From contig NZ_ACZP01000016.1 in assembly GCF_000176175.1 (NCBI RefSeq), positions 1-64,000 of the forward strand: a DNA stretch of 64,000 bases, given 5' to 3'. Shown one piece after another: positions 2,320-24,193 of this stretch; the stretch's first letter is position 1, and the number at the start of each line of letters is the position of its first letter. The stretch comes from Vibrio furnissii CIP 102972. GTDB taxonomy: Bacteria > Pseudomonadota > Gammaproteobacteria > Enterobacterales > Vibrionaceae. Position numbers and translations under genes: made by a program. The notes under the pieces are model-generated. The model had not been told where the DNA came from. It searched no databases and saw nothing but the letters and a program-made list of their open reading frames with translations.

Positions 2320-4485
2320 ATGACAACACAAGCAACCCGATCTTCAGTCGATAGCCAATCAGATGAAATCGATTTAGGCAAACTCTTTGGCATTCTACTA
2401 GATGCCAAATGGATCATCATTATCACGACCTTTGTTTTTGCTGTGCTGGGGGTGGCCGTTGCCATACTTTCTACGCCAATTTATAAAGCCGACGCACTGA
2501 TTCAGATTGAACAAAAAAGTTCCGGTGGTATCAGTTCGCTAGTTGGTGATATGGGAGAGCTGTTTTCTTCTGAATCGTCGGCAACGACTGAAATTGAGAT
2601 CATCAAATCACGCATGATTTTAGGGGATACGGTTGATAAGTTTAACCTGACAACGGTTACTGAACCTAATTACTTCCCTCTATTGGGCAAAGGATTCGCT
2701 CGCCTAGGAGGAGAGAGTCGAGCGATAAGCGTTAGTCGATTCACTGTTCCTTCATATGCGGATGAAGATGAGCAATACTCAATTACTGTACTCGATTCTC
2801 AAGCTCAAACTTATCAGTTTCTACGCAATGGTCGAGAAATGTTTGAAGGTGTAGCCGGCCATCTTTCTAAGAAAGATGGTTATGAGTTGTTTGTGACTAA
2901 CATAGATGCAGAAAAGGGCTTTGAGTTTACGATTGAAAAACGCAGTAAACTTGCGGCTATCGAATGGTTGAAACAAAATCTTTCCGTAAGTGAACGAGGC
3001 AAGCAAACCGGCATTCTGGAGTTGAGTTTTACTGGAGAACGAAAAACGCATATTGCTGATATTTTGAATGATATCGCGCAAAACTACTTTCTACAAAATG
3101 TTGAACGTAATTCCGCAGAAGCGGAAAAAAGTTTAGCGTTTCTTAAAAACAACCTTCCTGATGTAAAGCAAAGTCTGACAGAAGCTGAAGACACCTTAAA
3201 TGCATTCCGTCAAAAAAATGATTCGATTGATTTAGGGTTGGAAGCGCAGTCTACTCTTAAAGTGATGGTCGAGCTGGAAGCCCAGTTGAATGAACTAACG
3301 TTCAAAGAAAGTGAGATTAGTCAGCGGTTTACCAAAGATCACCCAGCATACCGTTCCCTGTTAGATAAACGAGCTACGCTCTTGAAAGAAAAAGAACGTT
3401 TAAATCAACAAATTCAGAAAATGCCGAAAACGCAGCGTGAAGTGCTGCGTATGACACGTGATGTGGAAGTGAACCAACAAATATATGTTCAGCTTCTCAA
3501 TAAAGTTCAAGAACTCTCAATAGTCAAAGCGGGTACTGTGGGTAACGTGCGTGTATTGGACCAAGCAGAGTCATACGCTGAGCCAGTTAAACCTAAAAAA
3601 GCGTTAATTGCAGTGCTCGCGACGCTATTCGGCGGCATGTTGAGTGTGGCTTTTGTTTTGGTGAAAGCGGCGCTACATCGTGGTGTGGAAAACCCGGATG
3701 ATATCGAACAAATTGGCCTTTCGGTTTATGCCAGCGTGCCGAAATCAAATCTTCAACTAGAATTATTCAATAAGCTGAAGCGTCACCGTAAGCAAAGCAC
3801 AGAATTAACGTTATTAGCGGAATCTAATCCAGCGGATCTCTCTGTTGAAGCCTTGCGAGGTTTACGGACCAGTTTGCATTTCGCGATGATGGAGTCTAAG
3901 AACAATGTACTGATGATCTCAGGACCTGCTCCGGGCATCGGAAAATCCTTTGTGTCGACGAACTTCTCAGCCGTTGCGGCCAAAACGGGGCAAAAAGTAC
4001 TGTTGATCGATGCCGACATGCGTAAAGGTTACCTGCAGCAACCTTTTGGTTTGGCATGGGAAAATGGTTTGTCTGATTTTTTAAGTGGCAAGATAGGCTT
4101 AAATGAGGCAGTGAAGACCACTCAAGTTGACAATCTAGACATCATGACGCGTGGCCAAGTGCCACCAAATCCATCAGAGTTACTTATGCATCCTCGTTTT
4201 AAAGAGTTGATGGAATGGGCGAGCGAACACTACGATTTGGTGATAATCGACACGCCGCCAGTACTTGCAGTCACCGATCCAAGTATCGTGGGTGCATTGG
4301 CTGGCACAACGCTGATGGTGGCCCGCTTTGGTATGAATACCGTGAAAGAGATTGACGTTGCTCGTAACCGATTTGAGCAAGCGGGTATTGAAGTCAAAGG
4401 CGTGATTCTGAATGCGACCGAGAAGAAAGCATCTAGTTATTACGGTTACGGCTACTATAACTATTCATACAAAAGCGAAAGCTGA
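2320..4485 (+). CDS. wzc: Wzc tyrosine autokinase, polysaccharide co-polymerase
   Basis: Wzc is an inner membrane BY-kinase that couples chain-length control to export through Wza. The 721-residue protein has an N-terminal Wzz domain with a first membrane helix near residues 32-52, a periplasmic coiled-coil region (about 250-400), a second membrane helix near 425-450, and a C-terminal cytoplasmic kinase. The kinase shows Walker A (GPAPGIGKS, about 535-543), Walker A' (LLIDADMR, about 561-568) and Walker B (VIIDTPP, about 641-647). The C-terminus is a tyrosine cluster (SSYYGYGYYNYSY), the autophosphorylation tail. It follows wzb by 80 bases and is the last gene before a hairpin and the IS remnant. 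Confidence 0.96.
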   Translation: MTTQATRSSVDSQSDEIDLGKLFGILLDAKWIIIITTFVFAVLGVAVAILSTPIYKADALIQIEQKSSGGISSLVGDMGELFSSESSATTEIEIIKSRMILGDTVDKFNLTTVTEPNYFPLLGKGFARLGGESRAISVSRFTVPSYADEDEQYSITVLDSQAQTYQFLRNGREMFEGVAGHLSKKDGYELFVTNIDAEKGFEFTIEKRSKLAAIEWLKQNLSVSERGKQTGILELSFTGERKTHIADILNDIAQNYFLQNVERNSAEAEKSLAFLKNNLPDVKQSLTEAEDTLNAFRQKNDSIDLGLEAQSTLKVMVELEAQLNELTFKESEISQRFTKDHPAYRSLLDKRATLLKEKERLNQQIQKMPKTQREVLRMTRDVEVNQQIYVQLLNKVQELSIVKAGTVGNVRVLDQAESYAEPVKPKKALIAVLATLFGGMLSVAFVLVKAALHRGVENPDDIEQIGLSVYASVPKSNLQLELFNKLKRHRKQSTELTLLAESNPADLSVEALRGLRTSLHFAMMESKNNVLMISGPAPGIGKSFVSTNFSAVAAKTGQKVLLIDADMRKGYLQQPFGLAWENGLSDFLSGKIGLNEAVKTTQVDNLDIMTRGQVPPNPSELLMHPRFKELMEWASEHYDLVIIDTPPVLAVTDPSIVGALAGTTLMVARFGMNTVKEIDVARNRFEQAGIEVKGVILNATEKKASSYYGYGYYNYSYKSES

Positions 4486-4899: not shown

Positions 4900-5978
4900 A
4901 TTAGTAACCAGAACCCATTTATGCATGTCGATGTTATCCCAGATTACCGACAAAAAGGCAAAGTCGAGCACAAGCTAACAGATATCATTTTGTTAACAAT
5001 TTGTTCGGTGTTTTCTGGTCAAGCTCGAATAGATTTTTTGAAGCGATTCGGTGCTTCTAGTTTTGGTGTTCCGTCAGCATCGACCATAGCCAGAACGATG
5101 AGAATGATAAGTGCGACTCGATTACAGAAGTGCTTTATTGAATGGATGAAAGATTGCTGTGAGTTGACCAAAGGAGAGGTGGTTGCCACGACGGTAAGGA
5201 GGTGAGGGGCTCTTACGATGACTCTCGCGGACTTGGTGCTATCCATATGGTCAACGTGTTTGCCACTGAAAATGGTGTGAGCCTCGGACAACAAAAAGTG
5301 TCCCAGAAGTCGAATGAGATCACCGCCATTCCAAAGCTACTTGAACTGCTTGATATATCAGGCTGTTTAGTCACGATTGATGCGATGAGCTGTCAAAAGA
5401 AAATTGCACAAAAGATACTTGATAGTGACGCGGACTATCTTTTAGCAGTTAAAGGTAACCAAGGCCGTTTAGAGCAAGCGTTCGATAACTATTTTGACAT
5501 GAGCATGTTTCAAAACCACGATGGTGACTCCTACAGCACGCAAGAGAAATCACGTGGTAGACAAGAAACTAGGCTTGCATTGAACAATAAAGATTTAAGT
5601 GTTTTAGGTGATATTGAGTTTGAGTGGTCTGGTCTTAAAACCATGGGTATTGTGGTTTCAATAAGGCAAGAAGAGGAAGTAGCGAAAGAGTCAGAATTAG
5701 TGGTGAAATACTACATCAGCTCGAAGGATTTAAATGCTAAAGAGTTGTTAAATGCAACGCGATCGCATTGGTTGGTGGAGTCGATGCATTGGAGCTTGGA
5801 TACCACATTTGGTGAAGACTCAAGTCGTAAGCGCGCGGAAGAAAGTGCAGAGAATTTCGCAAGGATCAGACAAGCGTGTTTAAATATGCTCAAGAGTGAA
5901 ACGACTCTGAAACACAAAAGAGCGATGTGTGCCATGGATTCTGAGTACCTATTGAAGGTGCTAGAAAGCCTTTATTGA
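4900..5978 (+). pseudogene. ISAs1-family transposase (H-repeat type), frameshifted
   Basis: Two frames (4921-5205 and 5202-5978) together give one DDE transposase. The break is a one-base loss at about 5188-5189: the expected IDGKT motif, holding the first catalytic Asp, reads GCC-AC-GAC-GGT-AAG, so the upstream frame runs into TGA. Two more lesions are likely. About a dozen residues are missing between ICSVFSGQ and ARIDFLKRFG compared with the family. The probable start is now ATT at 4900, 8 bases after a GGAGG, where ATG-AGT-AAC would be expected. The second half keeps TIDAMSCQ and the C-terminal GEDSSRKRAEES region. The gene should be inactive. Confidence 0.88.
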
Positions 5979-6003: not shown

Positions 6004-6298
6004 ATAACTACTCCTGCAAAAGTGAAAGTAAATAGTAGAGAGTAGTCATAAATATAAGGGCCTAAAAGGGCCTTTTATTAAAAGTCTTAAAAGTTAGATA
6101 TTTAAAGAAAATTAAATATTAAATGATTATGATTATTTAGATTGCATGTAATGTATCTCATACTATGAAGGTTATTATGTTCAAGTTTTACTGGTCAGTT
6201 ATTTGTTTCAAAGAAGAAGTTTATTACCTTCTAAACTAAGAAATCTCTTAATAACATTAAAGTTTTAAACGTATAGATTGTATAGGAAAATTTATTTT
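6004..6298. other. AT-rich gap between IS and murA paralogue
   Basis: This 295-base stretch contains no gene. An imperfect stem with a mismatch (AAGGGCC, loop TAAAA, GGGCCTT, about 6057-6076) followed by Ts at 6077-6079 could be a weak terminator. The AT-rich remainder (6085-6290) should hold the promoter for the murA-to-ugd transcript, unless transcription enters from the IS or from wza. No single promoter hexamer pair is convincing. Confidence 0.5.
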
Positions 6299-7582
6299 AT
6301 GGCTCTTTATAATGATGTTATTGAAATCGAAGGTGGGCAGACACCAAAAGGTGAAGTGACAGTTTCAGGTGCTAAAAACTCAGCAACTCGACTGTTAGCT
6401 GCTGCTACATTATGTGATGAAGAAGTAGTCTTAACCGGTTATCCTACTAACTTAGTTGATTCTAAGCATAAAGAGAGATTCCTAAATAATAATGGTGTCT
6501 TAACTAAGTCTGAAAATGATACTTTAGTTATTGATTCAAAAGATTATACTCCTAAACATTTAGATGATTATTTTTACCCAATTAGAACTACATATCTATT
6601 GGTTGCAGGTCAACTGAAACGCAGTGATGTCGCATATATCCCTTATCCAGGAGGATGTAACATTGGTGCTCGTAAATATGATGTGCATATTGCGATTTGG
6701 GAGGAATTTGGTTGTAAAGTCGAAGAGAAAGAAAACCATATAGAAATTCATAGACCTGAGAAGTTACTTGCTACCCAGTATGAATTTCCTATCTCAACTG
6801 TGGGTGGAACAGAGAATGCTTTGTTGATGGCATCTATTGCCGAAGGCATCTCAACGTTTGCTAACGCTTATATCACGCCAGAAATCGAGGATTTAATAGC
6901 TTTTCTTCGTCGCTCAGGTGTTGAAATTGAAGTTATAGGTCAGAGTTCCATTAAGGTTACTGGATGTAGCTATCTAAAAGGGCATCAATACCATGTCTTA
7001 CCTGACCGTATTGAAGCATTAACTTGGCTAATTTATGGTGCAATTTCTGGCGGTTCTATACTGATCAAAAATGTACCTTTTGACTCAATGGAGATACCAC
7101 TGATGTATCTCAGAAATGCTGGTGTAGATTTTTTCCAGAATAGTGAAAGTATTTATATCAATACATCATGTATGAAAGACGGCCATGCTCACTCTTTCGA
7201 AGTAGCTTGTGGTACTCACCCTGGCATTATCTCTGACATGCAGCCGTTTTACGTAATGCTTGGCTTAATGTCCATCGGTAAGTCACGTATACATGATTAC
7301 CGTTACCCTAAACGAGTCTCATACGTAGAAGAGCTACAAAAGTTTGTAAATCTTCAACTTGAATTTGAAGAGGGTAAGATAACAACTAATGGTCCAGTTA
7401 CTTTTAATTCCGCTGATGCCGTAGCTACTGATTTACGTGGAACTATGGCTGCTGTTTTAGCTGCATTATGTGCTCCGAGCGGACTTTCACGCATTACTGG
7501 TGTGTCAATGGCCCTGAGAGGTTATAACAACCTTGAAGCTAAGTTAGAGCAGCTTGGTGTTAAAGTCGATTACAAAGGTTAG
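6299..7582 (+). CDS. MurA paralogue: UDP-GlcNAc enolpyruvyl transferase-like
   Basis: MurA moves enolpyruvate from PEP to the 3-OH of UDP-GlcNAc, the first committed peptidoglycan step. This 427-residue homologue sits in a polysaccharide locus, so it is probably a dedicated second copy. Catalytic residues are kept: Lys26-Asn27 (GAKNS), active-site Cys120 in PGGCNIGAR with Arg125, Asp313 in SDMQ, Arg407 in RGYNNLEAKL; VLPDRIEA is also conserved. Start ATG 6299 has AGGA about 11 bases upstream; a TTG at 6278 in frame is less likely. A murB paralogue follows. Inferred job: with MurB, to make a UDP-sugar carrying a lactyl ether for the surface glycan. Base composition is much more AT-rich than the backbone. 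Confidence 0.9.
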   Translation: MALYNDVIEIEGGQTPKGEVTVSGAKNSATRLLAAATLCDEEVVLTGYPTNLVDSKHKERFLNNNGVLTKSENDTLVIDSKDYTPKHLDDYFYPIRTTYLLVAGQLKRSDVAYIPYPGGCNIGARKYDVHIAIWEEFGCKVEEKENHIEIHRPEKLLATQYEFPISTVGGTENALLMASIAEGISTFANAYITPEIEDLIAFLRRSGVEIEVIGQSSIKVTGCSYLKGHQYHVLPDRIEALTWLIYGAISGGSILIKNVPFDSMEIPLMYLRNAGVDFFQNSESIYINTSCMKDGHAHSFEVACGTHPGIISDMQPFYVMLGLMSIGKSRIHDYRYPKRVSYVEELQKFVNLQLEFEEGKITTNGPVTFNSADAVATDLRGTMAAVLAALCAPSGLSRITGVSMALRGYNNLEAKLEQLGVKVDYKG

Positions 7583-7597
7583 TAACAATAAGGATAT

Positions 7598-7617
7598 GCA
7601 CCATGTAATCATGGTGC
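7598..7617 (+). repeat. 8-bp perfect hairpin between murA and murB paralogues
   Basis: GCACCATG (7598-7605), loop TAAT, CATGGTGC (7610-7617) form a perfect stem ending 10 bases before the murB-like start. An AAGGA at 7590-7594 precedes it, and the arm contains ATG immediately followed by TAA, a minimal start-stop. It may tune translation of the downstream gene. Confidence 0.5.
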
Positions 7618-7627
7618 TTAAATAAAT

Positions 7628-8530
7628 ATGGTTAAGTTAGCAGACAAATCTTACTGGAAAGTTGGCGGTGAGTGTTCCTCATTTTTCGACGTTGGCGATG
7701 AAATACAACTTAAGAATACATTAAAGAATAATGACTTATCTAAATTGATCGTTATTGGCAACGCGACAAATCTACTCTTTGACTCCAAGGGATACGATGG
7801 TGTTGTGATTAAGCTCAATGGCCAATTTAATCAAGTCTCATTTTCTGATTCTGGACCAGTAGAAGTGGGTGCTGCTGTTTGGGTTCCGGGTTTAGTTAGA
7901 CAATTAATGAAAAGAGGCAAAGGCTCTCTAGATCACTGTGTAGGTATACCTGCGACAGTCGGAGGATTAGTTGCTATGAATGGTGGGAGCCAAAGGAAGT
8001 CTATATCAGAAAATATTATATCCGTTAAAGTCATGGATTATGATGGTAATATCCATTGGATTGATCGCGAAGAGTGTTTATTTTCTTATAGAAAATCATT
8101 ATTTCTTGATGGTGGTTTAATAATCCTAAGCGTTATATTGGATTTGGTGGATATTGAACCTAATTCAAATAGAATTGATCTTCTTAAAATATTGAAAGAA
8201 AGACGCCTGAAATTTCCGAGAAAAGAACCAAATTGTGGTTCAGTATTTAAAAGTAGTGTGGAACTATATAATAAAATTGGCCCACCAGGGTTTGTAATTG
8301 AGTCGCTCGGTTTAAAAGGTTTAAAATTTGGTGATGCTGAAATATCTGAGAAACATGCTAACTTTATCGTAAACAAAGGACATGCAAAATCTGATGATAT
8401 TATATCTCTAGTTAAGCATATTAATCTATACTGTAAAAATGAATATAATATCGAGATGGAAGCTGAGGCGATTTACTTAAGTAAGTCTGGTGAAAGATAT
8501 TTACTTCATTGTGCCCCAAATGAAAAATGA
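7628..8530 (+). CDS. MurB paralogue: UDP-N-acetylenolpyruvoylglucosamine reductase-like
   Basis: MurB is a flavoenzyme that reduces the enolpyruvyl ether made by MurA to a lactyl ether, giving UDP-MurNAc. This 300-residue copy has the FAD-binding pattern (GNATNLLF, residues 44-51; GIPATVGGLVAMNGG, 106-120) and the expected catalytic residues: Arg155 in SYRKS, Ser205 in NCGSVFK and Glu280 near the end. SEKHANFIVN (240-249) is typical of the short type II enzymes. It follows the murA paralogue by 45 bases. The pair implies a full UDP-MurNAc-type pathway inside the capsule locus. Its substrate could be another UDP-HexNAc enol ether; sequence alone does not tell. Confidence 0.9.
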   Translation: MVKLADKSYWKVGGECSSFFDVGDEIQLKNTLKNNDLSKLIVIGNATNLLFDSKGYDGVVIKLNGQFNQVSFSDSGPVEVGAAVWVPGLVRQLMKRGKGSLDHCVGIPATVGGLVAMNGGSQRKSISENIISVKVMDYDGNIHWIDREECLFSYRKSLFLDGGLIILSVILDLVDIEPNSNRIDLLKILKERRLKFPRKEPNCGSVFKSSVELYNKIGPPGFVIESLGLKGLKFGDAEISEKHANFIVNKGHAKSDDIISLVKHINLYCKNEYNIEMEAEAIYLSKSGERYLLHCAPNEK

Positions 8531-9794
8531 TAGTCTACTTTATAAAATAATATCGATTTTTTTAAAGAAATCAATAGTTTTTATTCTTGCTTTTGTCGTA
8601 ATGCTATTACAGGCTAGGGCTTTAGGTGCCGAGACTCGTGGTGTCTTGGCCGCATTGCTCGTATTGCCCAATTTGTTTGTAATTATTGCTGAAGGAGGAA
8701 TGAGGCAAGCAAGTACATACTTTTTAGGAAAGAAAATAATTGACGAAAAAAACACGTTGGCTACATCGAAAGTGTTTTTTTTCGTATCATCAATTATAGC
8801 TACCATAATCCTTTTTCTTGCGCAAATTTACACATTACCAGATATTGATTCTAATTATATTCTCCTTTCCATCGTTGCCCTACCTTTTTTAGTAATAAAT
8901 AGTGGGTACCGAGGGTTTTTGTTAGGATATAAGAAAACTGATAAGTTTGGTAATAACTTATTAATACCAAAATTAATTCAAACCTTAGTAATCGTAACGT
9001 TGTATTTACTGGGGGTTTTGAATCTAGAATGGTCTCTCATCGTTTTTATTTTAGTTGGTGTAGTAAATTTTGCTTTAGGCTGGCTTGCAGTCCAAGAAGT
9101 CGCCCCAAAGGCTCCAATTCGATATTTTAGTTTTACTACACTTAGTAAAATGCTAAAGCTGGGCGGAGTATTTGGACTAAGTTTCTTCTTCATAAATCTC
9201 AATTATCAAATAGGGATCCTAGTCGGGAAAGGCACGTTAGAAAGCTCCGAGTTAGGTAACTATGCAGTCACGATACAAATCGCGGAGCTTGTTTGGCAAT
9301 TGCCAGCTGCGATTTCCGTGATCTTTTTTTCCGAAAGTATGTCTAAATTGCAACATGATGATAAATGGGTAGCGATAATAACAAAGACTACAAGAATTCA
9401 AACAGGTTTAACTCTTATCATCTGCTTGATAGGAATTCCTTTAGCTCAGCATCTGTTACCAATTCTCATTGGTAATGACTATGAAATGGTATATCAAATA
9501 TTGATTCCGCTTATTCCAGGAATAGTGATGATGTCTGTCTTTAAGGTAATTAATGTAGACTTTGCAGGTAGAGGGAAACCTTGGATGATATTGACGTTTA
9601 TGCCGTTTATTGCCTTGTTGAATTACTTCCTGTCCACGAAACTATCATTAGAATACGGTGTTGTTGGCCTTTCTATAGCTGTGTCTATTACTTATTCATT
9701 GGCAGCTATATTAGCCGTTTCCGCATACTCTTACATGTACAAAGTTAATTTTCTTTCTTTCTTTATTCTGAAAAAGAGTGACTTTAAAAAGTAG
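8520..9794 (+). CDS. wzx: Wzx-type flippase (first of two)
   Basis: The protein (424 residues from ATG 8520) is a polytopic membrane protein of the MATE-like oligosaccharide flippase (MOP) superfamily with about 12 predicted membrane helices. It would move undecaprenyl-linked repeat units across the inner membrane. The N-terminus (KKSIVFILAFVVMLLQARALG) and the GVFGLSFFFINLNYQIGILVG region are typical of Wzx. The start is uncertain: ATG 8520 overlaps the murB stop by 11 bases; GTG 8490 in frame would overlap more. Neither has a clear ribosome binding site, which suggests translational coupling. A second flippase lies at 17862. Confidence 0.85.
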   Translation: MKNDSLLYKIISIFLKKSIVFILAFVVMLLQARALGAETRGVLAALLVLPNLFVIIAEGGMRQASTYFLGKKIIDEKNTLATSKVFFFVSSIIATIILFLAQIYTLPDIDSNYILLSIVALPFLVINSGYRGFLLGYKKTDKFGNNLLIPKLIQTLVIVTLYLLGVLNLEWSLIVFILVGVVNFALGWLAVQEVAPKAPIRYFSFTTLSKMLKLGGVFGLSFFFINLNYQIGILVGKGTLESSELGNYAVTIQIAELVWQLPAAISVIFFSESMSKLQHDDKWVAIITKTTRIQTGLTLIICLIGIPLAQHLLPILIGNDYEMVYQILIPLIPGIVMMSVFKVINVDFAGRGKPWMILTFMPFIALLNYFLSTKLSLEYGVVGLSIAVSITYSLAAILAVSAYSYMYKVNFLSFFILKKSDFKK

Positions 9795-9835: not shown

Positions 9836-10744
9836 ATGAAAAAATATAAAGTAGCCATTTTTACGGCGTATTACAATCGTGAGAATGATGTCAGTGAGTC
9901 AATTTCTAGCCTGTTGAACCAAACGTATGATGATTTTGTAGTTGTAGCTATAAATGATGGTTCTACAGATAATACACTTTCCAAGATGAAAGATATAAAT
10001 GATGATAGGTTGATAATTATAGATAAGGACAATAGTGGTTTTGTTTCCTCAATGATTTATGCCATAAATAAAATAGATTCTGAATATATTGCGATACATG
10101 GCTCTGGAGATATTTCATATCCAGATAGAATATCTTTGCAAGTTGAGGTGTTAGATAACAATCCCAATGTTGGAGTAGTAGGCTGTCATTATAAGAATAC
10201 AGATCTAACTAGAAACAAATCTGTTGAGTTTCACCATTTGTCTGGACTTATTAAGGGGCCAGAAATGGCGATTCAATTGAGTATGAAGAATCCCCTCACA
10301 CAAGGTGAAGTTATGTTGAGAAGGGATGTTTATAATAAAGTTGGTGGTTACAATCCCTTATTTATTTTTTCGCAAGATTATGATTTATGGACAAGAATTT
10401 CAAAAGTTACCGATTTTTTTATAATCCCTAAATTTTTATATGAACGATATGTGCGTTTTGATGGAGTAAGCGGCAATGTTAATAAAATTGCCATTCAGCA
10501 ATATTTAGCCAGTGTTGCAAGGGTAAATAGTTTTGTAGACAACTCTGATATTAATGTGTTGTCTGTATTCAAAAAAATAAATGATCCTATACTATCTAAG
10601 AGGTTAATTAGACTAAATGTAAGGGCAATACTATATGAAAAAATATATCCTAAAGATCTTGCAAGAATAAATTTATTAGAACTAGGTACTAAGGGCTTGT
10701 TTTTTAATCTCTTGCTAAATATATGTCGATTTAGAAGAAAGTAA
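9836..10744 (+). CDS. Family 2 glycosyltransferase
   Basis: A cytoplasmic GT-A fold transferase of 302 residues. It opens with VAIFTAYYNRENDVSESI and has the nucleotide-binding NDGSTDNT near residues 40-47. The position of the metal-binding DxD reads HGSGDISYPDRI, so only the last Asp of the usual DADD pattern remains; some GT2 subgroups look like this. The acceptor region holds SQDYDLWTRI. It is in the AT-rich module between the flippase and the polymerase and should add one sugar of the repeat unit. Donor and linkage are unknown. Confidence 0.85.
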   Translation: MKKYKVAIFTAYYNRENDVSESISSLLNQTYDDFVVVAINDGSTDNTLSKMKDINDDRLIIIDKDNSGFVSSMIYAINKIDSEYIAIHGSGDISYPDRISLQVEVLDNNPNVGVVGCHYKNTDLTRNKSVEFHHLSGLIKGPEMAIQLSMKNPLTQGEVMLRRDVYNKVGGYNPLFIFSQDYDLWTRISKVTDFFIIPKFLYERYVRFDGVSGNVNKIAIQQYLASVARVNSFVDNSDINVLSVFKKINDPILSKRLIRLNVRAILYEKIYPKDLARINLLELGTKGLFFNLLLNICRFRRK

Positions 10745-10745
10745 A

Positions 10746-11951
10746 ATGAATGGTAGATTTATAAATAAAATTAATGCTCTTCACTTATTTATATCAGGGA
10801 CGTTTTTTTTAAAGATCATAGAATCAACTGTATCATTTATACCTCCTATATATAAATTTTATTTGCCAGCAACTCTATTTATTGGTTTTTATATAGCCTA
10901 TCCTTATTTAAGGAAAATTCAAGGTAGTATATCGGTATCAATATTTCTGATAAGTCTATTTTCATATTTAATTATACTAATTAATGTTTTATGTTCTGAC
11001 TATGTGGACTTAAATGGAGTAACTCCTTTAGATTTTCACTTGGTTTTACTTTTTTCAATCCCTGCCTTTTTTATGTATGGAATATCTATATCTAGAAGTG
11101 CTTCCTTTAATCTTGAAGAGAATTATATAGATAGGTCAGTTGTTTTTTTACTAGCATTAGTTATATTTCTTAACGTAAATTTCCAATATTTTAGATTAGA
11201 CTTTGAATCATTTAAGTATGATAAGGCTGTTTATCTGTTTCTTGGGGATATATTGTCCATAATCGGATTGTATTATGTTTCTATTGCAAAGGGGACTTTG
11301 AATAAAACTATATACTTTTCTTTTTTTCTATTGTTATTGTTTGTTGTTTACTCTAGGACAAGTTTGTATTTCTTCGCTTTTACTGTCTTCGCTGGAATAT
11401 TTATAAGTTCGAGTGGTAGAAGAAAGATTTGTTATTTATTGCCTGTCGTTTTTTTTGCGTTAATTATAATTCCTTTATCTGATAAACTAAGTCATATGGA
11501 GTTGCCCTACTCTTTGAATAGAATGTTGTTCGTATTCTCAGGGTCCGATGATGGTTCTTTAAATGGTAGGGAAATGATATTTGAGGGCTCATTAAGAAGT
11601 TTAGAAAACTCGCTATGGCTAGGAGATTTTGGTAACCAGATTGACGTTTTTGGGTATTGGTCATTCTACATCCATAATGTTTTATCCTACTTAAGACAAT
11701 TCGGATTAATAGCTTTTATATTTGTAATAATAATGCTATCACTCCCTCTGATTTTCTTTACTTATAGAGTTCATATTGGTAGGCGTTTATCAATTAGCCC
11801 TTTATATACGTTTGGCTTTTTGGTTTCATTTTACTTGTTATGCATATATGTATTTTCTCGTTCGTATATGTATCCATACATTTATTTAATGCCAGGTTAT
11901 TTCATAGGAGTTATTTGTAGTGAAAAAAAACCATACCTTACAAATAGGTAA
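10746..11951 (+). CDS. wzy: Wzy-like polysaccharide polymerase
   Basis: A 401-residue, very hydrophobic protein with about 10-12 membrane helices and a larger polar loop (about residues 245-300, with SLNGREMIFEGSL). This layout is that of O-antigen/capsule polymerases, which join repeat units on the periplasmic face. The motif of polar residues followed by IHNVLSYLRQFG is typical of the Wzy/O-antigen ligase superfamily. It starts one base after the GT2 stop. Wzy proteins diverge strongly, so the call rests on topology and place in the locus. Confidence 0.78.
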   Translation: MNGRFINKINALHLFISGTFFLKIIESTVSFIPPIYKFYLPATLFIGFYIAYPYLRKIQGSISVSIFLISLFSYLIILINVLCSDYVDLNGVTPLDFHLVLLFSIPAFFMYGISISRSASFNLEENYIDRSVVFLLALVIFLNVNFQYFRLDFESFKYDKAVYLFLGDILSIIGLYYVSIAKGTLNKTIYFSFFLLLLFVVYSRTSLYFFAFTVFAGIFISSSGRRKICYLLPVVFFALIIIPLSDKLSHMELPYSLNRMLFVFSGSDDGSLNGREMIFEGSLRSLENSLWLGDFGNQIDVFGYWSFYIHNVLSYLRQFGLIAFIFVIIMLSLPLIFFTYRVHIGRRLSISPLYTFGFLVSFYLLCIYVFSRSYMYPYIYLMPGYFIGVICSEKKPYLTNR

Positions 11952-12948
11952 TTTTGGCGGTGACGTTCAAATTGATGGACAAACAGTAAAAACAAAAATG
12001 ATTCATAGACTATTACTGTCTAGATATGATGAAGTTAAAATTATAGATATATATAATTATTCATTAATTAATTATTTGTTTCTTATACTTAAATTGCCTA
12101 TGTTAGTATTTTTATCTAATTCCGTTTTTATAGGAATAGGTAAGCGTGGCATGAAAATATTAACTCCTATAGTAATAGTTTTGGGTGCTGCTTTTAAAAA
12201 AGAAGTCCATTATTATGTTGTAGGAGGTTGGATGCTTCTATATTTGGAACGATATAAGTGGTTGATACCATTTTATAAAAAGTTTAAATCTATTTTGGTT
12301 GAATTACCGTCTATGGTAATGGATTGCCAAGATAAATTTAATCTTAATAATGTTTATAACCTTCCAAATTTTAGGTGTTATAATTCTGAAGATACAACGG
12401 TTTTGCAAGTTAATTCACCAGTTAAACTTGTATTCTTTTCTCGAGTTATACCGGAAAAAGGAATATGTCTTGCGCTTGATGCGTTGAATCGAGTAAATAG
12501 TGAGAGTAATTTGGCTACTCTTGATGTTTTCGGGCCGGTTTTTGACAAAGAGATCCTTGAGTCTATTGAGAATAATCAATATGCGAAATATAATGGTGTT
12601 TTATCACCTGACGATTCTAGTATTTACACTGAGCTTAGTAAATACGACGTCTTATTATTTCCGACATATTATGAAGGTGAAGGGTACCCCGGTGCTATCG
12701 TAGATGCTTTCTTCTCTGGTTTACCCGTGATAGCATCGGACTGGAAATATAATGGTGAAATAATTACTTCCGGAATCGATGGCTATATTTTTGAATCAAA
12801 GAGTGTTTTATCTCTAGAGAATACTTTGAAGAAGCTTTGTTTGAATAGAGATCAAATCTTTGAGATGAAGAATAATGCACTGAGAACTTCAGAAAAATTC
12901 TCATTCGAAAATGCTAAGAAAATTATGAATGATGTTACATTTTTATAG
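11920..12948 (+). CDS. Family 4 glycosyltransferase
   Basis: 342 residues, GT-B fold. The C-terminal half carries the donor-binding domain: KLVFFSRVIPEKG, then LLFPTYYEGEGYPGAIVDAFFSGLPVIASDW, the GT4 EX7E-type region. The start is GTG 11920, with ATAGGAG nine bases upstream, inside the last 32 bases of the polymerase gene, so the two are probably translationally coupled. It should add a sugar of the repeat unit; specificity is unknown. Confidence 0.86.
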   Translation: MKKNHTLQIGNFGGDVQIDGQTVKTKMIHRLLLSRYDEVKIIDIYNYSLINYLFLILKLPMLVFLSNSVFIGIGKRGMKILTPIVIVLGAAFKKEVHYYVVGGWMLLYLERYKWLIPFYKKFKSILVELPSMVMDCQDKFNLNNVYNLPNFRCYNSEDTTVLQVNSPVKLVFFSRVIPEKGICLALDALNRVNSESNLATLDVFGPVFDKEILESIENNQYAKYNGVLSPDDSSIYTELSKYDVLLFPTYYEGEGYPGAIVDAFFSGLPVIASDWKYNGEIITSGIDGYIFESKSVLSLENTLKKLCLNRDQIFEMKNNALRTSEKFSFENAKKIMNDVTFL

Positions 12949-13024
12949 GAAATGATTTCCCTTTGTCTCAATAAAAGTGTCATTTTATTTTTTAATTGGT
13001 TTTCTTATTTTAAGAGGTATCCCA

Positions 13025-13780
13025 TTGTATTCTCTAGTTTCTATTATTACCCCTTCATTTAATTCTCAAGATTGGGTTGAAAAAACATATATTTCCTTGA
13101 AAAGTCAAACTTATACTAATTGGCAATGGATAATTACAGATGATTGCTCGGCAGATAATACTTTTGACCTTTTAAATGATCTTTCGAAAAATGATTCCCG
13201 CATAAAATTGTTCAAAAATTCTGTTAATTCTGGGGCTGCTGTTTCACGAAATAACTCTATATCTAAAGCTGATGGGGAGTTCATTGCATTTATTGATAGT
13301 GATGATCTTTGGTTACCAGAAAAGCTTGAAAAACAAGTGCAATTTATGCTCAAGAAAAACGTTAATTTTTCTTTTACAGCCTATGAGACTGTGAATGAAG
13401 ACGGTGAGTCAACAGGAAAGAAAGTTGACACACATTTAACTGGATCTATCGAATATGAGGATATGCTAAGAAAGAAAGCCACTTTAGGTTGTTCTACTGT
13501 TATGCTAAGACGATCTGCTTTCGATGATATTTCAATGCCTTTAATTAGAACAGGCCAAGACTACGGTCTGTGGTTAAAGTTGTTGAAGACTGGTACAAAG
13601 GCATATCCTATTCCAGAGGTACTTACGCAATATCGTATACTGCCAAATTCAATATCTAGAAACAAAGTCAAGAAAGCCAAAAGACAATGGCAAATTTATC
13701 GACAGATTGAAAAACTTAGTTTAGTTAAGTCATTTGAATGTTTTTGCTTTTATGCTTGGCGAGCCGTTTTTCGTAAGTAG
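13025..13780 (+). CDS. Family 2 glycosyltransferase
   Basis: A GT-A transferase of 251 residues. From TTG 13025 the protein begins MYSLVSIITPSFNS, the classic GT2 opening, and AAGAGGT (13012-13018) gives a well-placed ribosome binding site. A longer frame from GTG 12977 would add a hydrophobic stretch unlike the family. Motifs: TDDCSADNTF and FIDSDDLWLPEKLEKQ (intact DSDD metal site), then GQDYGLWLKL in the acceptor half. It is the last transferase of the AT-rich module and precedes ugd by 48 bases. Donor unknown. Confidence 0.85.
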   Translation: MYSLVSIITPSFNSQDWVEKTYISLKSQTYTNWQWIITDDCSADNTFDLLNDLSKNDSRIKLFKNSVNSGAAVSRNNSISKADGEFIAFIDSDDLWLPEKLEKQVQFMLKKNVNFSFTAYETVNEDGESTGKKVDTHLTGSIEYEDMLRKKATLGCSTVMLRRSAFDDISMPLIRTGQDYGLWLKLLKTGTKAYPIPEVLTQYRILPNSISRNKVKKAKRQWQIYRQIEKLSLVKSFECFCFYAWRAVFRK

Positions 13781-13828: not shown

Positions 13829-14995
13829 ATGAAAATTACTATTGCCGGCACAGGCTATGTCGGCTTATCAAATGCAATGCTGTTGGCGCAGAATCATGAA
13901 GTTGTGGCTATCGATATCATCGAAAGCAAAGTTGAAATGCTTAATAATAAGCAGTCGCCGATTGTGGATACAGAGATTGAAGATTTTCTCGCCAACAAAG
14001 CGCTCAACTTCCGTGCTACGGTAGATAAGCAAGATGCTTACGCCAATGCCGATTTCGTTATCATCGCGACGCCAACGGATTATGATGTTGAAACCAACTA
14101 TTTCAACACAGGTTCTGTTGAATCCGTAATTAAAGATGTCATCGCCATTAACCCGAGTGCGGTGATGGTGATTAAATCGACTATCCCTGTCGGTTATACC
14201 GAGCAAATTAAGCAAGAGCTGGGTTGCGACAACCTGCTGTTCTCACCTGAGTTTTTACGTGAAGGTCGCGCGCTGTACGATAATCTTTATCCTTCTCGCA
14301 TTATTGTGGGTGAACGAAGTGAACGCGCTGAAGTTTTCGCGAACCTGTTAGTGGAAGGGGCGGTAAAAGAAGACATTAAAGTACTGTTTACCGATTCAAC
14401 CGAAGCTGAAGCGGTGAAACTGTTTTCGAATACCTATCTTGCATTGCGTGTGGCTTACTTCAATGAACTGGATAGTTACGCAGAAACTCACGATCTCAAT
14501 TCTCGTCAGATTATTGAAGGGGTGAGCTTAGATCCTCGTATTGGCAATCATTATAACAACCCGTCATTCGGTTATGGTGGTTACTGCTTACCCAAAGATA
14601 CCAAACAGCTTCGCGCGAACTATGCGGAAGTACCGAACAACATTATTGGTGCGATTGTGGATGCGAACACCACACGTAAAGACTTTATCGCCGATTCTAT
14701 TTTGAAACGTAATCCTAAGCGTGTGGGCATCTATCGCCTTGTCATGAAGGCGGGCTCTGATAACTTCCGCGCGTCTTCGATTCAAGGGGTCATGAAGCGA
14801 TTAAAAGCGAAAGGTGTTGAAGTGGTGGTGTATGAGCCAGTACTGAAAGAGAAAACCTTCTTCAACTCTCTAGTTTTGACTGATCTCGAACAATTCAAAT
14901 CCGCGTGTGACGTGATTGTGTCTAACCGTATGGTGGATGAAATCAGCGATGTGGCCGATAAGGTCTATACGCGTGATTTGTTTGGTAATGATTAG
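13829..14995 (+). CDS. ugd: UDP-glucose 6-dehydrogenase
   Basis: Oxidises UDP-glucose to UDP-glucuronate with two NAD+. The 388-residue protein has the N-terminal dinucleotide fold ([16 protein letters not shown]), the central helix with [23 protein letters not shown], and the catalytic Cys in [15 protein letters not shown]. Length and motifs match the short bacterial Ugd family. GC content rises sharply at this gene compared with the module before it. It supplies a hexuronic acid to the glycan, or a precursor for GalA. In other capsules Ugd is a target of Wzc-type kinases; nothing here tests that. It is followed by a strong bidirectional terminator. Confidence 0.95.
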
Positions 14996-15104: not shown

Positions 15105-16180
15105 TTATTTGCTCGCAATCACTTCTTCGGAGCGCTCGGATTTTACTCTGCGTAAGAATGCGGTAAGCCGCCAAACATAGCTAAGTAATACAGAATAAAT
15201 CATAAAGCAGGCAATAAAGGTGTAGAACATGGTGGCTTCGCTGATACGCGCAGCTTCGCCATAAATTCCAAATGCTGCAAAACCTACTGCAATGAGACAA
15301 ATCATGGCCAGTGTTTGCTTGGGAGTTAATCCTAAACGCTGGAAAATGTGGTGAAGATGTTCCCGGTCTGGTTTAAAGGGAGAGTCTCCTCTACGCACTC
15401 GGCGAATCATGATTGCAGCCATGTCCATCAAAGGTACTGCGATTAGCCACAAGGCGGTGACAGGCCTCATTAATGGCTCGCTACCTGTTTGACTTGCCCC
15501 CAACAGTAGCCAAATCACTGTAAAACCGATCATCATGCTGCCGGCATCTCCCATGAATACCTTGCGTTCGCGGCCCAGTATTCCGAGGTTCATAAAGATA
15601 TAAGGCAACAGGGCAGTAATAATGACCAAACACAAGTAAGCTAACCCATGTTGACTATCTACGTTTAACAGAATTGCAATCGCGCCGAATGTCACAATCG
15701 ATAAACCGCCAAGCAATCCGTCAATGCCGTCGACCATATTGAAGGCGTTTATGGCACCAATAACGGCAAACACGGTCACGATGATGCCAAACCAGCCTAA
15801 GTAAATATCACCAACTCCAAATAAGTTGCCTAAACTGTTGAGCTCAATCCCCGTCACTTCCATCATGGTGATGGAAAGGGCCGCTTGAATCGCGATGCGC
15901 ACTTTCACACTGAGGTCGAACTTATCGTCCAGCGCACCTACAAATGTCAGCGTCGCAATCGATAACACAAACAGTTCACTGTACTGAATGATGTCGGGGC
16001 GAAAGGTGAGAAATTGAGACAGTACAATACAAGTCGATATACCTCCGACGAGTGGTACTGCCCCTTGATGAAGTTTGCGTGCATTAGGCTTATCTACTAA
16101 CCCTATTTTTTTGCTACTTTTCTTAGTAAAAAGAGAATAGCAAACGCACTAAAGAAGATGAATGTGAGTTCCAAAAACAT
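15105..16180 (-). pseudogene. wecA: WecA-type initiating transferase, frameshifted in A7 run
   Basis: WecA transfers GlcNAc-1-phosphate to undecaprenyl phosphate and starts many O-antigens and ECA. Read from ATG 16180 the protein opens MFLELTFIFFSAFAILFLLRKVAKK and meets TAG at 16103-16105. One base earlier in phase it continues IGLVDKPNARKLHQGAVPLVGG and runs to 15105. Joined, the product is 358 residues, like E. coli WecA, with GALDDKFD, NAFNMVDGIDGLLGG, GDAGSM and DREHLHH. The break lies in a run of seven As (16112-16106 on the minus strand); eight would restore the frame. Zero-frame codons GCA-AAA-AAA-TAG place A-AAA-AAA as a -1 slippery heptamer, so ribosomal or polymerase slippage could still give full-length protein. 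A sequencing error is also possible. Confidence 0.88.
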
Positions 16181-16815: not shown

Positions 16816-17865
16816 ATGTCTAAAATAACTTTTTTTACCAGAGATAGTATTGATGAAAGCTGTGCTTCGACGATTCGTCTTCAGCACATTGTCGCGGGTT
16901 TCGCGGCCAATGGCTATCAGACGCGAATTGTGAGCGGTTACGCTCCTACTCGGTTGGGTAAGTTGAAGCAGTTCCTTTATCTTTATTGGCTATCTTTGTT
17001 TATCCGTAGTGATGCTTTTATATACGGAGAGCTGGTGTTACCCCGGTTTTTGGGCTGCTTTCTTTTTGCGCGTCGTTTGTTTGCTGAGCGAACTGAATTC
17101 CCTTTCTACAAGATTACTTCATTGCGTCGACACAAGCGCTTGTTGAGCCAATGTTACGTCCATACTCTACGACATGTTGATCAGTTCATTACTTGCTCCT
17201 ATACCCTTAAACAATTTTATGAGCCTCATGTGAAGCGAGGGAGTGTTCAGGTCATCCCCTTTTTTATTGATGAATCTTTTTTCGATAAAAATACGAATCT
17301 CGTCGATCAACACCAGTTATGTTACTGCGGGTATATGGGGAATAACAAAGATGGAATCGAGGATCTACTGCACGCTTTCTCGTTATTTATTGAGAAAAAG
17401 GGGAGAAGTGAACCGTACCGTTTAGTGTTGCTTGGCAGTGCGGAAGATGCCGCGATGAAACGATTGAACGCATTGGTTCAACAATTGGGTATCGAACAAC
17501 ATGTGGTTTTCAAAGGACGAGTGCCTCACGAAAAGGTATTAGAAACAATTAACGCTTCTGGATTGCTAGTTTTAACTCGCCCGGACAATTTGCAAGCACA
17601 GGGCGGATTTCCATCGAAATTGGGGGAATATCTCAGTACAGGAAACCCAGTACTATGTACCGATGTGGGGGAAATCAAAAGAGTGATCGGAGACGATATC
17701 ATTCATTTTGTGCCACCTGGTCAGCCAGAAGAAGCGGCAATAATGATGGTAAATGTGTTCAGTCGCTATGCGGAAAGTCAACAGCGAGCGGAGAAAGGTC
17801 AGGCCTTCGTTCGTCAGTTTGTACCGCGCCGAATGATTGCAGAGCTGTTGAGTCAGGCAAAATGA
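16816..17865 (+). CDS. Family 4 glycosyltransferase
   Basis: 349 residues, GT-B fold. The N-terminal domain opens SKITFFTRDSIDESCASTIR; the C-terminal GT4 domain has LCYCGYMGNNKDGIEDLL, YRLVLLGSAED, and GGFPSKLGEYLSTGNPVLCTDVGE at the donor-phosphate site. It is the first gene of the second rightward module, and its stop overlaps the ATG of the next flippase (ATGA). Specificity is unknown. Confidence 0.86.
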   Translation: MSKITFFTRDSIDESCASTIRLQHIVAGFAANGYQTRIVSGYAPTRLGKLKQFLYLYWLSLFIRSDAFIYGELVLPRFLGCFLFARRLFAERTEFPFYKITSLRRHKRLLSQCYVHTLRHVDQFITCSYTLKQFYEPHVKRGSVQVIPFFIDESFFDKNTNLVDQHQLCYCGYMGNNKDGIEDLLHAFSLFIEKKGRSEPYRLVLLGSAEDAAMKRLNALVQQLGIEQHVVFKGRVPHEKVLETINASGLLVLTRPDNLQAQGGFPSKLGEYLSTGNPVLCTDVGEIKRVIGDDIIHFVPPGQPEEAAIMMVNVFSRYAESQQRAEKGQAFVRQFVPRRMIAELLSQAK

Positions 17866-19259
17866 CCCGGTCATTAGTAAAAAACTTTATTGTCTACGGC
17901 TTAGGGTTTGGGCTCAGTAAGTTTTCTATGGTGTTGGTGTTGCCTTTTGTGACGTCAGCATTAACGCCGGAAGAATTTGGTGTCATTGAATTAGTTCAGA
18001 CGGCTTACAACGTGCTCATGATTTTTGGTCTCCTGCAATTGGATGCGTCATTTCAGCGATTCTATGCCAATCAAGAGTTCCAGCAAACTCGGTTGATAGG
18101 AACCATTGTTCTGTTTATCGTGTTGGCAAACGTTCTATTAATCGGGGCGATTCATGGGCTGGGCTGGTTATTTCTTGATGATCTTCCGGTTGGAATGCCT
18201 ATCATTAGTTTGATGTCGGCATTGGTTTTCTTTTCCAATGTCTCTTCAATACTGTTTATTGTCTATCGTTATGACGACCGTGCAGTCTCATTATCGCTGC
18301 TGACCTTTATTCAGATCGCTGTTCAAGTGATTTTTATCTATTACTTTCTCGTGATTAAACAATACGGCGTCTTCCACTATTTTTTGTCGCAAACAATCGG
18401 CTTTGTGGTGTTGCTGGTGCTGCAGATCGCTTTACTCAAACGCAGTGTTGATTGGCGTATCGATAGGGGTTATCTCAAGCGTCTTTTTCGGTTTGGTTTA
18501 CCACAGATGCCTGCTCGAATTGGCGCAGTGTTAAACCGGCATGTCAGCAAGTTCTTTATCATCAATGCGATGTCTATGCATGCGTTGGGTATCTACTCTG
18601 CAGCATTGAAGGTGTCTTCAATGGCGCAGATTATTTACATGGCTTTTAATATGGCGTGGTATCCCATGCTGTATAAAATGCTCAATAGCAAGGACTATAC
18701 TAAGCTCAAAATAATGAATGCAATGGTTGTTGGCGTTTGTCTCTATGCGTCGATTGCTTTTGCTTTGTTATCACCACTCATGGGGCAATTGTTGTTGTCT
18801 GAAGAATACACTGAGTCTGTGAAATACATGGCGCCGTTGTTTCTATCGACACTACTGTTTGTGGTTAAAGATTCCGTTGATATTGGCACTCGAGTGACTG
18901 AGAAAACACAGTACGTCAGCTACATCTACTTTGTTGCCATGGCCGTGACGCTTGTGCTCTACACGCTATTTTCAAAATTTGGCATCGCGTCAGTTGTCGC
19001 CATTCAGTTCGCAGGGAACCTACTTTTGGTCGCTATGACCTTATATAACTCAGAGTGGTTATTTAAAGTAGGCTTTTCCTATCTCGTCAATATCGTTAGC
19101 ATTGTGCTGTGTTTCGTCCTATTGGTCGTTATCGCGTCTTTGGATCTCAGCATGACTCAGTCGTTGTCAGCGTTTGCTGTACTCACGCTCTCTGTCATGT
19201 TGGGCAGTTGGATAACCTATAAAAAGAAGTTTGCCAAGTCGCATAATGAAGTCTGTTAA
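17862..19259 (+). CDS. wzx: Second Wzx-type flippase
   Basis: A 465-residue polytopic protein of the MOP flippase superfamily with about 12-14 membrane helices, opening SLVKNFIVYGLGFGLSKFSMVLVLPFVTSALTP in pieces typical of Wzx/RfbX. A longer open frame begins at 17655, but ATG 17862 overlaps the previous stop by four bases and gives the family's N-terminus. It is GC-richer than the flippase at 8520 and not its close copy. Its presence with only one obvious polymerase in the locus is unusual. Confidence 0.88.
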   Translation: MTRSLVKNFIVYGLGFGLSKFSMVLVLPFVTSALTPEEFGVIELVQTAYNVLMIFGLLQLDASFQRFYANQEFQQTRLIGTIVLFIVLANVLLIGAIHGLGWLFLDDLPVGMPIISLMSALVFFSNVSSILFIVYRYDDRAVSLSLLTFIQIAVQVIFIYYFLVIKQYGVFHYFLSQTIGFVVLLVLQIALLKRSVDWRIDRGYLKRLFRFGLPQMPARIGAVLNRHVSKFFIINAMSMHALGIYSAALKVSSMAQIIYMAFNMAWYPMLYKMLNSKDYTKLKIMNAMVVGVCLYASIAFALLSPLMGQLLLSEEYTESVKYMAPLFLSTLLFVVKDSVDIGTRVTEKTQYVSYIYFVAMAVTLVLYTLFSKFGIASVVAIQFAGNLLLVAMTLYNSEWLFKVGFSYLVNIVSIVLCFVLLVVIASLDLSMTQSLSAFAVLTLSVMLGSWITYKKKFAKSHNEVC

Positions 19260-19270
19260 AGGGTAAAAAA

Positions 19271-20305
19271 GTGTTTAAAAACAAAGTATTACTAATCACT
19301 GGTGGCACTGGCTCATTTGGGAATGCCGTGTTGAATCGATTTTTAGAAACGGACATCAAAGAAATTCGAATTTTTTCTCGCGATGAGAAAAAACAAGATG
19401 ATATGCGAAAGAAATATTGCAATAGCAAATTAAAGTTTTATATCGGTGACGTACGAGATTACAACAGTGTGCTGAGTGCAACTCGTGGTGTGGATTACAT
19501 TTATCATGCAGCGGCACTGAAGCAAGTTCCTTCTTGTGAATTTCACCCTATGGAAGCGGTGAAAACGAATGTACTGGGCACTGAAAATGTCCTTGAAGCG
19601 GCGATTGCTAACCAGGTGCAGAGGGTGGTGTGCCTGAGCACGGATAAAGCGGTGTATCCTATCAATGCTATGGGTATTTCGAAGGCCATGATGGAAAAGG
19701 TCATGGTGGCCAAAGCACGTAACGTTGATGAAACAAAAACGGTTATCTGCGGTACGCGTTATGGCAATGTGATGGCCTCTAGAGGGTCTGTTATTCCATT
19801 GTTTGTTGATCTCATTAAGGCCAATCAACCTCTGACGATCACTGACCCTAATATGACGCGCTTTATGATGACGCTTGAAGATGCTGTCGATTTAGTTTTA
19901 TACGCATTTGAACACGGTAACAATGGCGATATCTTTGTGCAGAAAGCGCCTGCTGCAACAATCGACACGCTCGCCCAAGCTTTACGTGAATTACTTCACG
20001 TGCCTCAACATCCTATCAATGTGATTGGGACTCGCCATGGTGAGAAGCTTTATGAGTGTTTACTCAGTCGAGAAGAAATGATTGCGGCCGAAGACATGAA
20101 TGAGTATTACCGAGTGCCACCTGATCTTCGAGATCTTAACTACAGTAAGTATGTTGAGGAAGGCGATGCGCGGATTGCACAGATCGAGGATTATAACTCA
20201 CACAATACCGAGCGTTTGGACGTCGAGGGAATGAAAGCTTTGTTAATGAAGTTGCCATTTATTCGAGCCATGTGTGCAGGGGACGAATTTGAACTTGATG
20301 CATAA
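19271..20305 (+). CDS. fnlA: UDP-GlcNAc 4,6-dehydratase/epimerase (FnlA/WbjB/CapE type)
   Basis: First enzyme of UDP-L-FucNAc synthesis: dehydrates and epimerises UDP-GlcNAc to UDP-4-keto-6-deoxy-L-hexosamines. The 344-residue extended SDR has GGTGSFGNAV (NAD binding, from residue 11), YHAAALKQVP, and LSTDKAVYPINAMGISKAMMEK where the catalytic Tyr is replaced by Met, as in this CapD/FnlA group. GTRYGNVMASRGSVIPLF follows. Length is normal. Start GTG 19271 follows the flippase by 11 bases. It is followed directly by fnlB and fnlC. Confidence 0.92.
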   Translation: MFKNKVLLITGGTGSFGNAVLNRFLETDIKEIRIFSRDEKKQDDMRKKYCNSKLKFYIGDVRDYNSVLSATRGVDYIYHAAALKQVPSCEFHPMEAVKTNVLGTENVLEAAIANQVQRVVCLSTDKAVYPINAMGISKAMMEKVMVAKARNVDETKTVICGTRYGNVMASRGSVIPLFVDLIKANQPLTITDPNMTRFMMTLEDAVDLVLYAFEHGNNGDIFVQKAPAATIDTLAQALRELLHVPQHPINVIGTRHGEKLYECLLSREEMIAAEDMNEYYRVPPDLRDLNYSKYVEEGDARIAQIEDYNSHNTERLDVEGMKALLMKLPFIRAMCAGDEFELDA

Positions 20306-20306
20306 T

Positions 20307-21410: not shown

Positions 21411-21424
21411 TGAGAGTACATAGA

Positions 21425-22555: not shown

Positions 22556-22571
22556 TAGCGTCAGTATTGTT

Positions 22572-22970: not shown

Positions 22971-23015
22971 GATGGGGCATCACAATAGCATTGAGTTAAG
23001 TAAATTAGGAATGCA

Positions 23016-24143: not shown

Positions 24144-24193
24144 TAGTTGAGCGAGTGCTTCAATAGTTAAAGATTGTTCACGAGGAGTTTGAG

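Follow-up and report, generated by a model that had tools for sequence, protein, structure and literature searches.

A diverged murA-murB pair in a capsule locus of Vibrio furnissii, probably part of a mobile module for a lactyl-ether sugar

Vibrio furnissii CIP 102972 carries two adjacent genes resembling murA and murB at positions 6299-8530 of the 64,000-nucleotide (nt) stretch analyzed here (contig NZ_ACZP01000016.1, positions 1-64,000, of the 4.96-Mb assembly GCF_000176175.1; hereafter the window). Our analysis of sequences and predicted structure suggests that this pair and a nearby family 2 glycosyltransferase (GT2) gene are likely to constitute a dedicated module, spread by horizontal transfer, for the synthesis of a lactyl-ether sugar and its incorporation into a capsule repeat, and that the acceptor sugar is probably not uridine diphosphate (UDP)-N-acetylglucosamine (GlcNAc). 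We define the lactyl-ether module as a MurA with R327 and P329 encoded next to a MurB with a GPPG insertion, with a GT2 gene nearby, and the window contains all of these features; positions in MurA comparisons follow the E. coli numbering unless they are given as residues of the window protein. What appears to be new is a phylum-spanning module of diverged enzymes with a partner GT2, whereas a capsule containing muramic acid itself has precedent. The titles and abstract openings of the literature searched mention nothing resembling this combination of genes.

Both open reading frames (ORFs) are complete. The gene for the MurA-like enolpyruvyl transferase (6299-7582, plus strand, 427 residues), for which the automatic ORF call begins at an in-frame TTG at 6278, is separated by 45 nt from that for the MurB-like enolpyruvyl reductase (7628-8530, plus strand, 300 residues), an enzyme type that uses flavin adenine dinucleotide (FAD). 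The MurA-like protein matched EPSP_synthase (PF00275) with 154.3 bits, against a cut-off of 22.8, and the broader subfamily NF006873 with 324.4 bits, above the cut-off of 297. With TIGR01072, the curated murA equivalog, it scored 311.2 bits, below the cut-off of 392.7. The top Foldseek matches of its AlphaFold model (pLDDT 85.4 overall and below 50 in the catalytic loop 118-126; pTM 0.86) were solved MurA structures, with TM scores of 0.91/0.92 for 1uae. The MurB-like protein matched MurB_C (PF02873, 80.5 bits) and FAD_binding_4 (PF01565), exceeded the equivalog cut-off of TIGR00179 (157.9 bits against 144.5) and scored 224 bits with NF010480, below the cut-off of 259. Alignment with the E. 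coli enzymes placed residues C120, D313 and R407 of the window MurA at C115, D305 and R397, and R155, S205 and E280 of the window MurB at R159, S229 and E325. A preliminary description of this DNA had named these six residues as catalytic and had seen a complete murA-murB paralogue pair within a capsule or O-antigen locus; the residues are correct, the pair is intact, and wza, wzb, wzc, wzx and glycosyltransferase genes surround it. The description did not include the changed substrate-site residues set out below or the score below the TIGR01072 equivalog cut-off.

The window MurA has all of the catalytic residues (K22, N23, R91, C115, R120, D305, D369, R371 and R397). At the substrate site it has K121, Y122, S161, R327 and P329, where P121, V122, V161, V/I327 and E329 are conserved; position 122 is one that we take to be a substrate position. 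The substrate-site list used for the comparisons consists of the residues around the 1UAE ligand in a docking table (PMC10816260) and includes positions 120, 121, 161, 297 and 326-329. We compared 15 members of the family to which the window MurA belongs with 41 other MurAs, mostly gammaproteobacterial and including the copy from a Vibrio vulnificus capsule locus. R91, C115, R120, D305, R331, D369, R371 and R397 are kept in all 15 members, and K22 and N23 in each of the 14 rows with sequence there. All 15 members share four residues, G297, S304, R327 and P329, that occur in none of the 41 others, where position 327 is V, I or M. I90, T93, W238 and D325 are likewise invariant among the members, but each is present in one of the 41; Y122 occurs in 14 members, with H in the remaining one, and no member has D at position 396. 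The 11 of 15 members that were scored with TIGR01072, the window protein among them, gave 300-368 bits, all below the cut-off. Family-specific residues appear to be enriched in the pocket: in a comparison of ten members with 34 others, 8 of 25 1UAE-site residues were family-specific, against 44 of 410 columns (p=0.0025), and in that of 15 with 41 the figures were 5 of 25 and 25 of 408 (p=0.013). A second site list, after UniProt, gave 4 of 12 (p=0.03).

The MurB proteins of the family are similarly set apart. A GPPG insertion follows the catalytic Ser in 15/15 of them and in none of 23 other MurBs. The window MurB is of type II, whereas the housekeeping MurBs of Vibrio are of the E. coli-like type I. 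On a 509-kb plasmid of Paenibacillus cellulosilyticus (NZ_CP054609.1, our locus L149) murB and murA are also adjacent; the MurB there lacks GPPG, and this pair is of a different kind.

The preliminary description had left open whether housekeeping copies exist elsewhere in the genome, and both were found. The murA gene lies on contig C7 of the host assembly (G000:C7:248127-249374; TIGR01072, 607.9 bits) and the murB gene on contig C10. A recent duplication of these host genes as the origin of the pair was rejected, since the window and host MurAs are only 28% identical and the host MurB is of the other type; more generally, the window MurA is 28-31% identical to the MurAs of Vibrio and E. coli. 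In trees of 44 MurAs and 27 MurBs, which took in ten family members and left out five plasmid members, the ten formed one clade each, with support of 100/99 for MurA and 98/96 for MurB, and the same division emerges from the residues and the insertion.

At E<=1e-40, 222 of 227 genomes of the genus matched the window MurA, and four had a second MurA: the window's own genome, G009 (81.6% identical), G109 (35%) and G222 (30%). The last is V. vulnificus, as judged by FrsA, which differs from the solved V. vulnificus protein VV1_0328 at two of 409 residues. The FrsA of the window's genome scored 712 bits against 915, which indicates a different Vibrio. At E<=1e-60, in even draws from larger groups, only the window's own genome matched (1/369 genomes of the class and 1/398 of the phylum), and wide presence across class or phylum was not seen at this threshold in those samples. 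Among 394 genomes of the order, one (G1121) had a match at 59%, and the next among the matches listed reached at most 33%, the housekeeping level. Eight further genomes of the order (G966, G970, G988, G1003, G1004, G1018, G1225 and G1241) had two MurA matches at E<=1e-38, the best of them at housekeeping level. Within the genus of G1121 (59 genomes), a second MurB_C match was present in G1299, G1309 and G1333, and these three carry the pair, as does G1121. A scan of named genome contigs yielded three more relatives: a Bacteroidales metagenome-assembled genome, Pelagicoccus (Verrucomicrobiota) and the gammaproteobacterium HdN1. Plasmid searches gave 133 and 30 matching records; among the matches listed (30 and 20 of them), plasmids of Haematobacter, Qingshengfaniella, Rhizobium (five) and Agrobacterium had both genes close together. 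The E. coli genomes gave no DNA match. Phage records gave 41 matches, and the eight listed were 31-33% identical, the level of an ordinary MurA.

We read 15 loci closely, of which five are on plasmids (including two of the five Rhizobium plasmids) and the other ten come from genomes or contigs. They span alpha- and gammaproteobacteria, Verrucomicrobiota and Bacteroidota. The murB gene adjoins murA in all 15, with the order reversed in Agrobacterium, and at 12 loci the stretch read contains further polysaccharide genes. The exceptions are Qingshengfaniella, where murA, murB and GT2 stand together with metabolic genes on both sides, and the two Rhizobium stretches, which are unannotated and were searched with the window genes only.

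A GT2 gene (9836-10744, plus strand; PF00535) lies close to the pair in the window and is our candidate for the transferase of the lactyl-ether sugar. A member of its family was found within the fetched stretch at 11 of the 15 loci. Among 72,556 plasmid records it gave seven matches at E<=1e-30, all in carriers of the pair; five of these are Rhizobium plasmids, so that independent cases number three. Across the genus (223 genomes), E<1e-30 was reached only in the window's genome and in G109, itself a pair carrier, and the next best match was at 7.1e-28. We infer that the GT2 handles the product of the module.

From the known chemistry of these families we infer a route of three steps. The window MurA would move enolpyruvate from phosphoenolpyruvate (PEP) to a hydroxyl of a UDP-sugar, most likely O-3; the window MurB, with FAD and NADPH, would reduce the enol ether, giving a carboxyethyl (lactyl) ether; and the GT2 would place the lactyl sugar on an undecaprenyl-linked repeat, which Wzx/Wzy and Wza-Wzb-Wzc would then export. 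On balance we favor a UDP-sugar different from UDP-GlcNAc as the probable acceptor, and a relative of UDP-N-acetylmuramic acid (MurNAc) as the probable product, although with less confidence than we place in the module as a whole. Two considerations argue for such an acceptor: none of the 41 other MurAs, that of the V. vulnificus capsule locus included, shows the substrate-site changes, and a diverged pair with its own glycosyltransferase would be redundant if it made UDP-MurNAc only. The preliminary description had proposed that the pair "most simply" makes UDP-MurNAc or a related lactyl-ether UDP-sugar. The intact catalytic residues, the housekeeping copies and the recurrence with GT2 are consistent with a dedicated lactyl-ether UDP-sugar pathway, and this part of the proposal is retained; the preference for UDP-MurNAc has less support, as both enzymes come from a divergent subfamily whose substrate sites have changed consistently. 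Nor is the chemistry as unusual as had been claimed, as a muramic-acid capsule had been reported for V. vulnificus ATCC 27562 in 1998 (cited in PMC7247339).

The most serious alternative, which we regard as possible but less probable, is that the pair makes ordinary UDP-MurNAc, that N-acetylmuramic acid is a component of the capsule, as it is in V. vulnificus ATCC 27562, and that the differences between the enzymes are drift. In its favor, the catalytic residues are kept; a muramic-acid capsule made from a wza-wzb-wzc-linked locus is described in PMC7247339, and a locus of this type in the V. vulnificus genome G222 includes a murA-murB pair. However, the V. vulnificus MurA keeps most of the pocket residues and scores 582 bits with TIGR01072, against 300-368 for the family; G297, S304, R327 and P329 are fixed across phyla; and a second source of UDP-MurNAc is unneeded in a cell with housekeeping MurA and MurB. 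On this last point G1121 speaks for the alternative, in that a MurB_C search of its complete genome found the module's MurB only, and neither murB nor birA was found in the 400 kb around its murA. The MurB_C search is imperfect, detecting no MurB at all in 3 of the 59 genomes of that genus; if the absence from G1121 is real, the module's MurB would have to be able to make UDP-MurNAc.

Several further points weigh, like the G1121 result, against a module with a new acceptor. The acceptor shift is read from alignment positions and not from a ligand complex, and part of the divergence could be neutral. The 41 comparison MurAs come mostly from gammaproteobacteria. The statistics for pocket enrichment are modest (p from 0.0025 to 0.03) and indicative only. 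A second, non-module MurA of Pelagicoccus also falls below the TIGR01072 cut-off (348 bits), so failure of this model is not fully diagnostic. Long branches were flagged in both trees, and the deep order is unsure. The GT2 was not recognized at 4 of the 15 loci (G009, HdN1, Agrobacterium and the 6.5-kb Bacteroidales contig). Finally, the interrupted frame of the wecA-like gene of the window puts polymer production by this isolate in doubt.

If the acceptor is indeed not UDP-GlcNAc, UDP-glucuronic acid (GlcA) is one candidate, since the sugar site has an Arg that could pair with a carboxylate, and 3-O-lactyl-GlcA is known from Alteromonas exopolysaccharides (PMC2901825). In this more specific and rather unlikely version of the proposal, the family would have changed its acceptor to a uronate, R327 would meet the C6 carboxylate of UDP-GlcA, and the module would install 3-O-lactyl-GlcA, or a similar lactyl uronic acid, in capsules. 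Searches with tblastn found genes resembling UDP-glucose dehydrogenase or UDP-GlcA epimerase in the window and in the G009, G109, Haematobacter and Agrobacterium stretches. HdN1 has a TviB-type UDP-GlcNAc dehydrogenase, and Pelagicoccus a dehydrogenase of unresolved kind. By the same searches, no uronate gene was recognized in 8 of the 15 stretches (the four of G1121 type, two of Rhizobium, Qingshengfaniella and the short Bacteroidales contig). Moreover, ugd homologues border the G009 and V. vulnificus loci as well, the V. vulnificus stretch ending in one that is 75.8% identical over 128 residues; ugd in Vibrio thus looks like a fixed flanking gene and says little for a uronate. The link through neighboring genes is only suggestive. 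Should the uronate version prove true, the module would supply genes for a sugar that is known chemically from marine exopolysaccharides and for which the literature searched, in its titles and abstract openings, names none.

It is improbable that the pair serves backup peptidoglycan synthesis or fosfomycin tolerance and that its position in a capsule locus is incidental. Some Bacillota have two murA genes, and plasmids too carry extra murA and murB, but the pair is adjacent at 15/15 loci, stands with polysaccharide genes at 12/15 and with one GT2 family at 11/15. As for tolerance, the fosfomycin-target Cys is kept in all 15 family MurAs, and the Cys-to-Asp change, described as a resistance change in PMC4062475, is absent from them. 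In the Bacteroidales organism (L080), the housekeeping MurA has Asp in place of this Cys, and the module MurA has Cys. Least probable of all is that the genes are decaying remnants without function: the transposase frame upstream and the wecA frame downstream are interrupted, but both ORFs are complete and encode the catalytic residues, and G009 has an intact MurA that shares 81.6% identity with that of the window.

The surroundings of the pair are a polysaccharide (capsule) locus, with the gene order wza, wzb, wzc, ISAs1 remnant, murA, murB, wzx, GT2, polytopic protein, GT4, second GT2 and ugd, all on the plus strand. The wza gene (640-1785) encodes a Wza-type export protein with Poly_export, SLBB_2 and Wza_C domains, wzb (1799-2239) a Wzb-type phosphatase (LMWPc, 121 bits) 82% identical to its homologue in the V. 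vulnificus locus, and wzc (2320-4485) a Wzc-type tyrosine autokinase (GNVR, Wzz, WZC_N, AAA_31) 80.6% identical to the gene there. An interrupted ISAs1-family transposase (4912-5978; NF033564, 270 bits) follows; its homology is divided between 4912-5187 and 5190-5972, which are in different frames. An ISAs1-type transposase (L021:1781-2908) is also present in the capsule locus of V. vulnificus, and the two are 71% identical. Downstream of murB, and overlapping its 3' end with its own 5' end, lies the gene for a Wzx-type flippase (8490-9794; PF01943, 36 bits), 32% identical to the gene directly after murB in G109. Beyond the GT2 are a polytopic membrane protein (10746-11951), a probable Wzy polymerase by position and hydrophobicity with no Pfam match; a GT4-type glycosyltransferase (11920-12948; PF13692/PF00534); and a second, TuaG-like GT2 (12977-13780; NF047683, 298.9 bits, below the cut-off of 400), with a 37% homologue in the pair locus of G109. 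The ugd gene (13829-14995; NF011631, 702.7 bits, cut-off 757) encodes a UDP-glucose 6-dehydrogenase, a source of UDP-GlcA. On the minus strand, the gene for a WecA-like initiating sugar-phosphate transferase (15105-16180; PF00953) has a frame broken near the N terminus, with homology to the V. vulnificus protein divided over two frames; sequencing error, phase variation and inactivation are indistinguishable here. From murA to the second GT2 the G+C content is 29-39%, whereas the window as a whole has 46.9%, wzc 43.6% and ugd 44.3%; these values suggest that the flanks are fixed and that the block between them was imported. The window also contains a second surface-polysaccharide block (16816-28674), with FnlA (725 bits, cut-off 730), a WbcJ-type reductase and a WecB-type epimerase, a set probably for synthesis of UDP-N-acetyl-L-fucosamine, and with another Wzx and PGA_cap and Capsule_synth genes.

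Lactyl-ether sugars are known from chemistry and are hard to predict from genomes. R327/P329 in MurA, GPPG in MurB and the GT2 together provide a sequence marker for glycans that may carry them. Annotated as murA and murB, for example in plasmid records, the module genes can be confused with spare peptidoglycan genes or fosfomycin-target genes. If the acceptor is new, the family would represent a natural change of acceptor in MurA, useful for studies of specificity and for the making of rare sugars.

Among known systems, the housekeeping MurA (EC 2.5.1.7) and MurB (EC 1.3.1.98) share fold, catalytic residues and reaction class with the window pair, which differs from them by its fixed substrate-site substitutions and GPPG. 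NikO of the nikkomycin pathway, which was found in PDB searches, is likewise an enzyme of MurA fold recruited to another acceptor; it is 21% identical to the window MurA, acts on a nucleotide and is not known to have a MurB partner. On the side of the product, 3-O-(1-carboxyethyl)-D-glucuronic acid is reported from the Alteromonas exopolysaccharides HYD657 and that of strain 1644 (PMC2901825). It resembles the predicted product in that it belongs to a marine surface glycan and has its lactyl ether at O-3 of a sugar that is not GlcNAc.

The closest parallel is the capsule of V. vulnificus. The murA(CPS) and murB(CPS) genes of that system are said to have been found, in Nakhamchik's work of 2010, functional in E. 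coli yet dispensable for capsule. According to PMC7247339, the ATCC 27562 capsule contains N-acetylmuramic acid and amide-linked serine (citing Gunawardena 1998), and its locus is wza-wzb-wzc-linked, with wecA (citing Nakhamchik 2007, 2010). The locus in G222, a V. vulnificus not known to be ATCC 27562, comprises wza, wzb and wzc (by homology to the window genes), rmlBADC-type genes, murB, murA, wzx and wecA. It also encodes a TupA-like ATP-grasp protein (PF14305, 132 bits; L021:6408-7274, minus strand), which is a plausible amide ligase for the capsule serine and which the locus of the window pair lacks. In both organisms an additional murA-murB pair lies in a capsule locus that has wecA and is linked to wza-wzb-wzc; however, the order is murB-murA in G222 and murA-murB in the window, and the G222 MurB is closer to the E. 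coli type, whereas that of the window is type II. The G222 MurA keeps P121, V122, T326, I327, E329 and D396 but has P161 and Q297, and it passes the TIGR01072 cut-off that the window MurA fails. Identity between the two systems is 30.3% for MurA and 24.9% for MurB, and the module forms a separate clade in both trees. Sequence, trees and residues together rule out that they are the same system, and the V. vulnificus pair and the window module seem to represent two separate events in which peptidoglycan chemistry was recruited into capsules.

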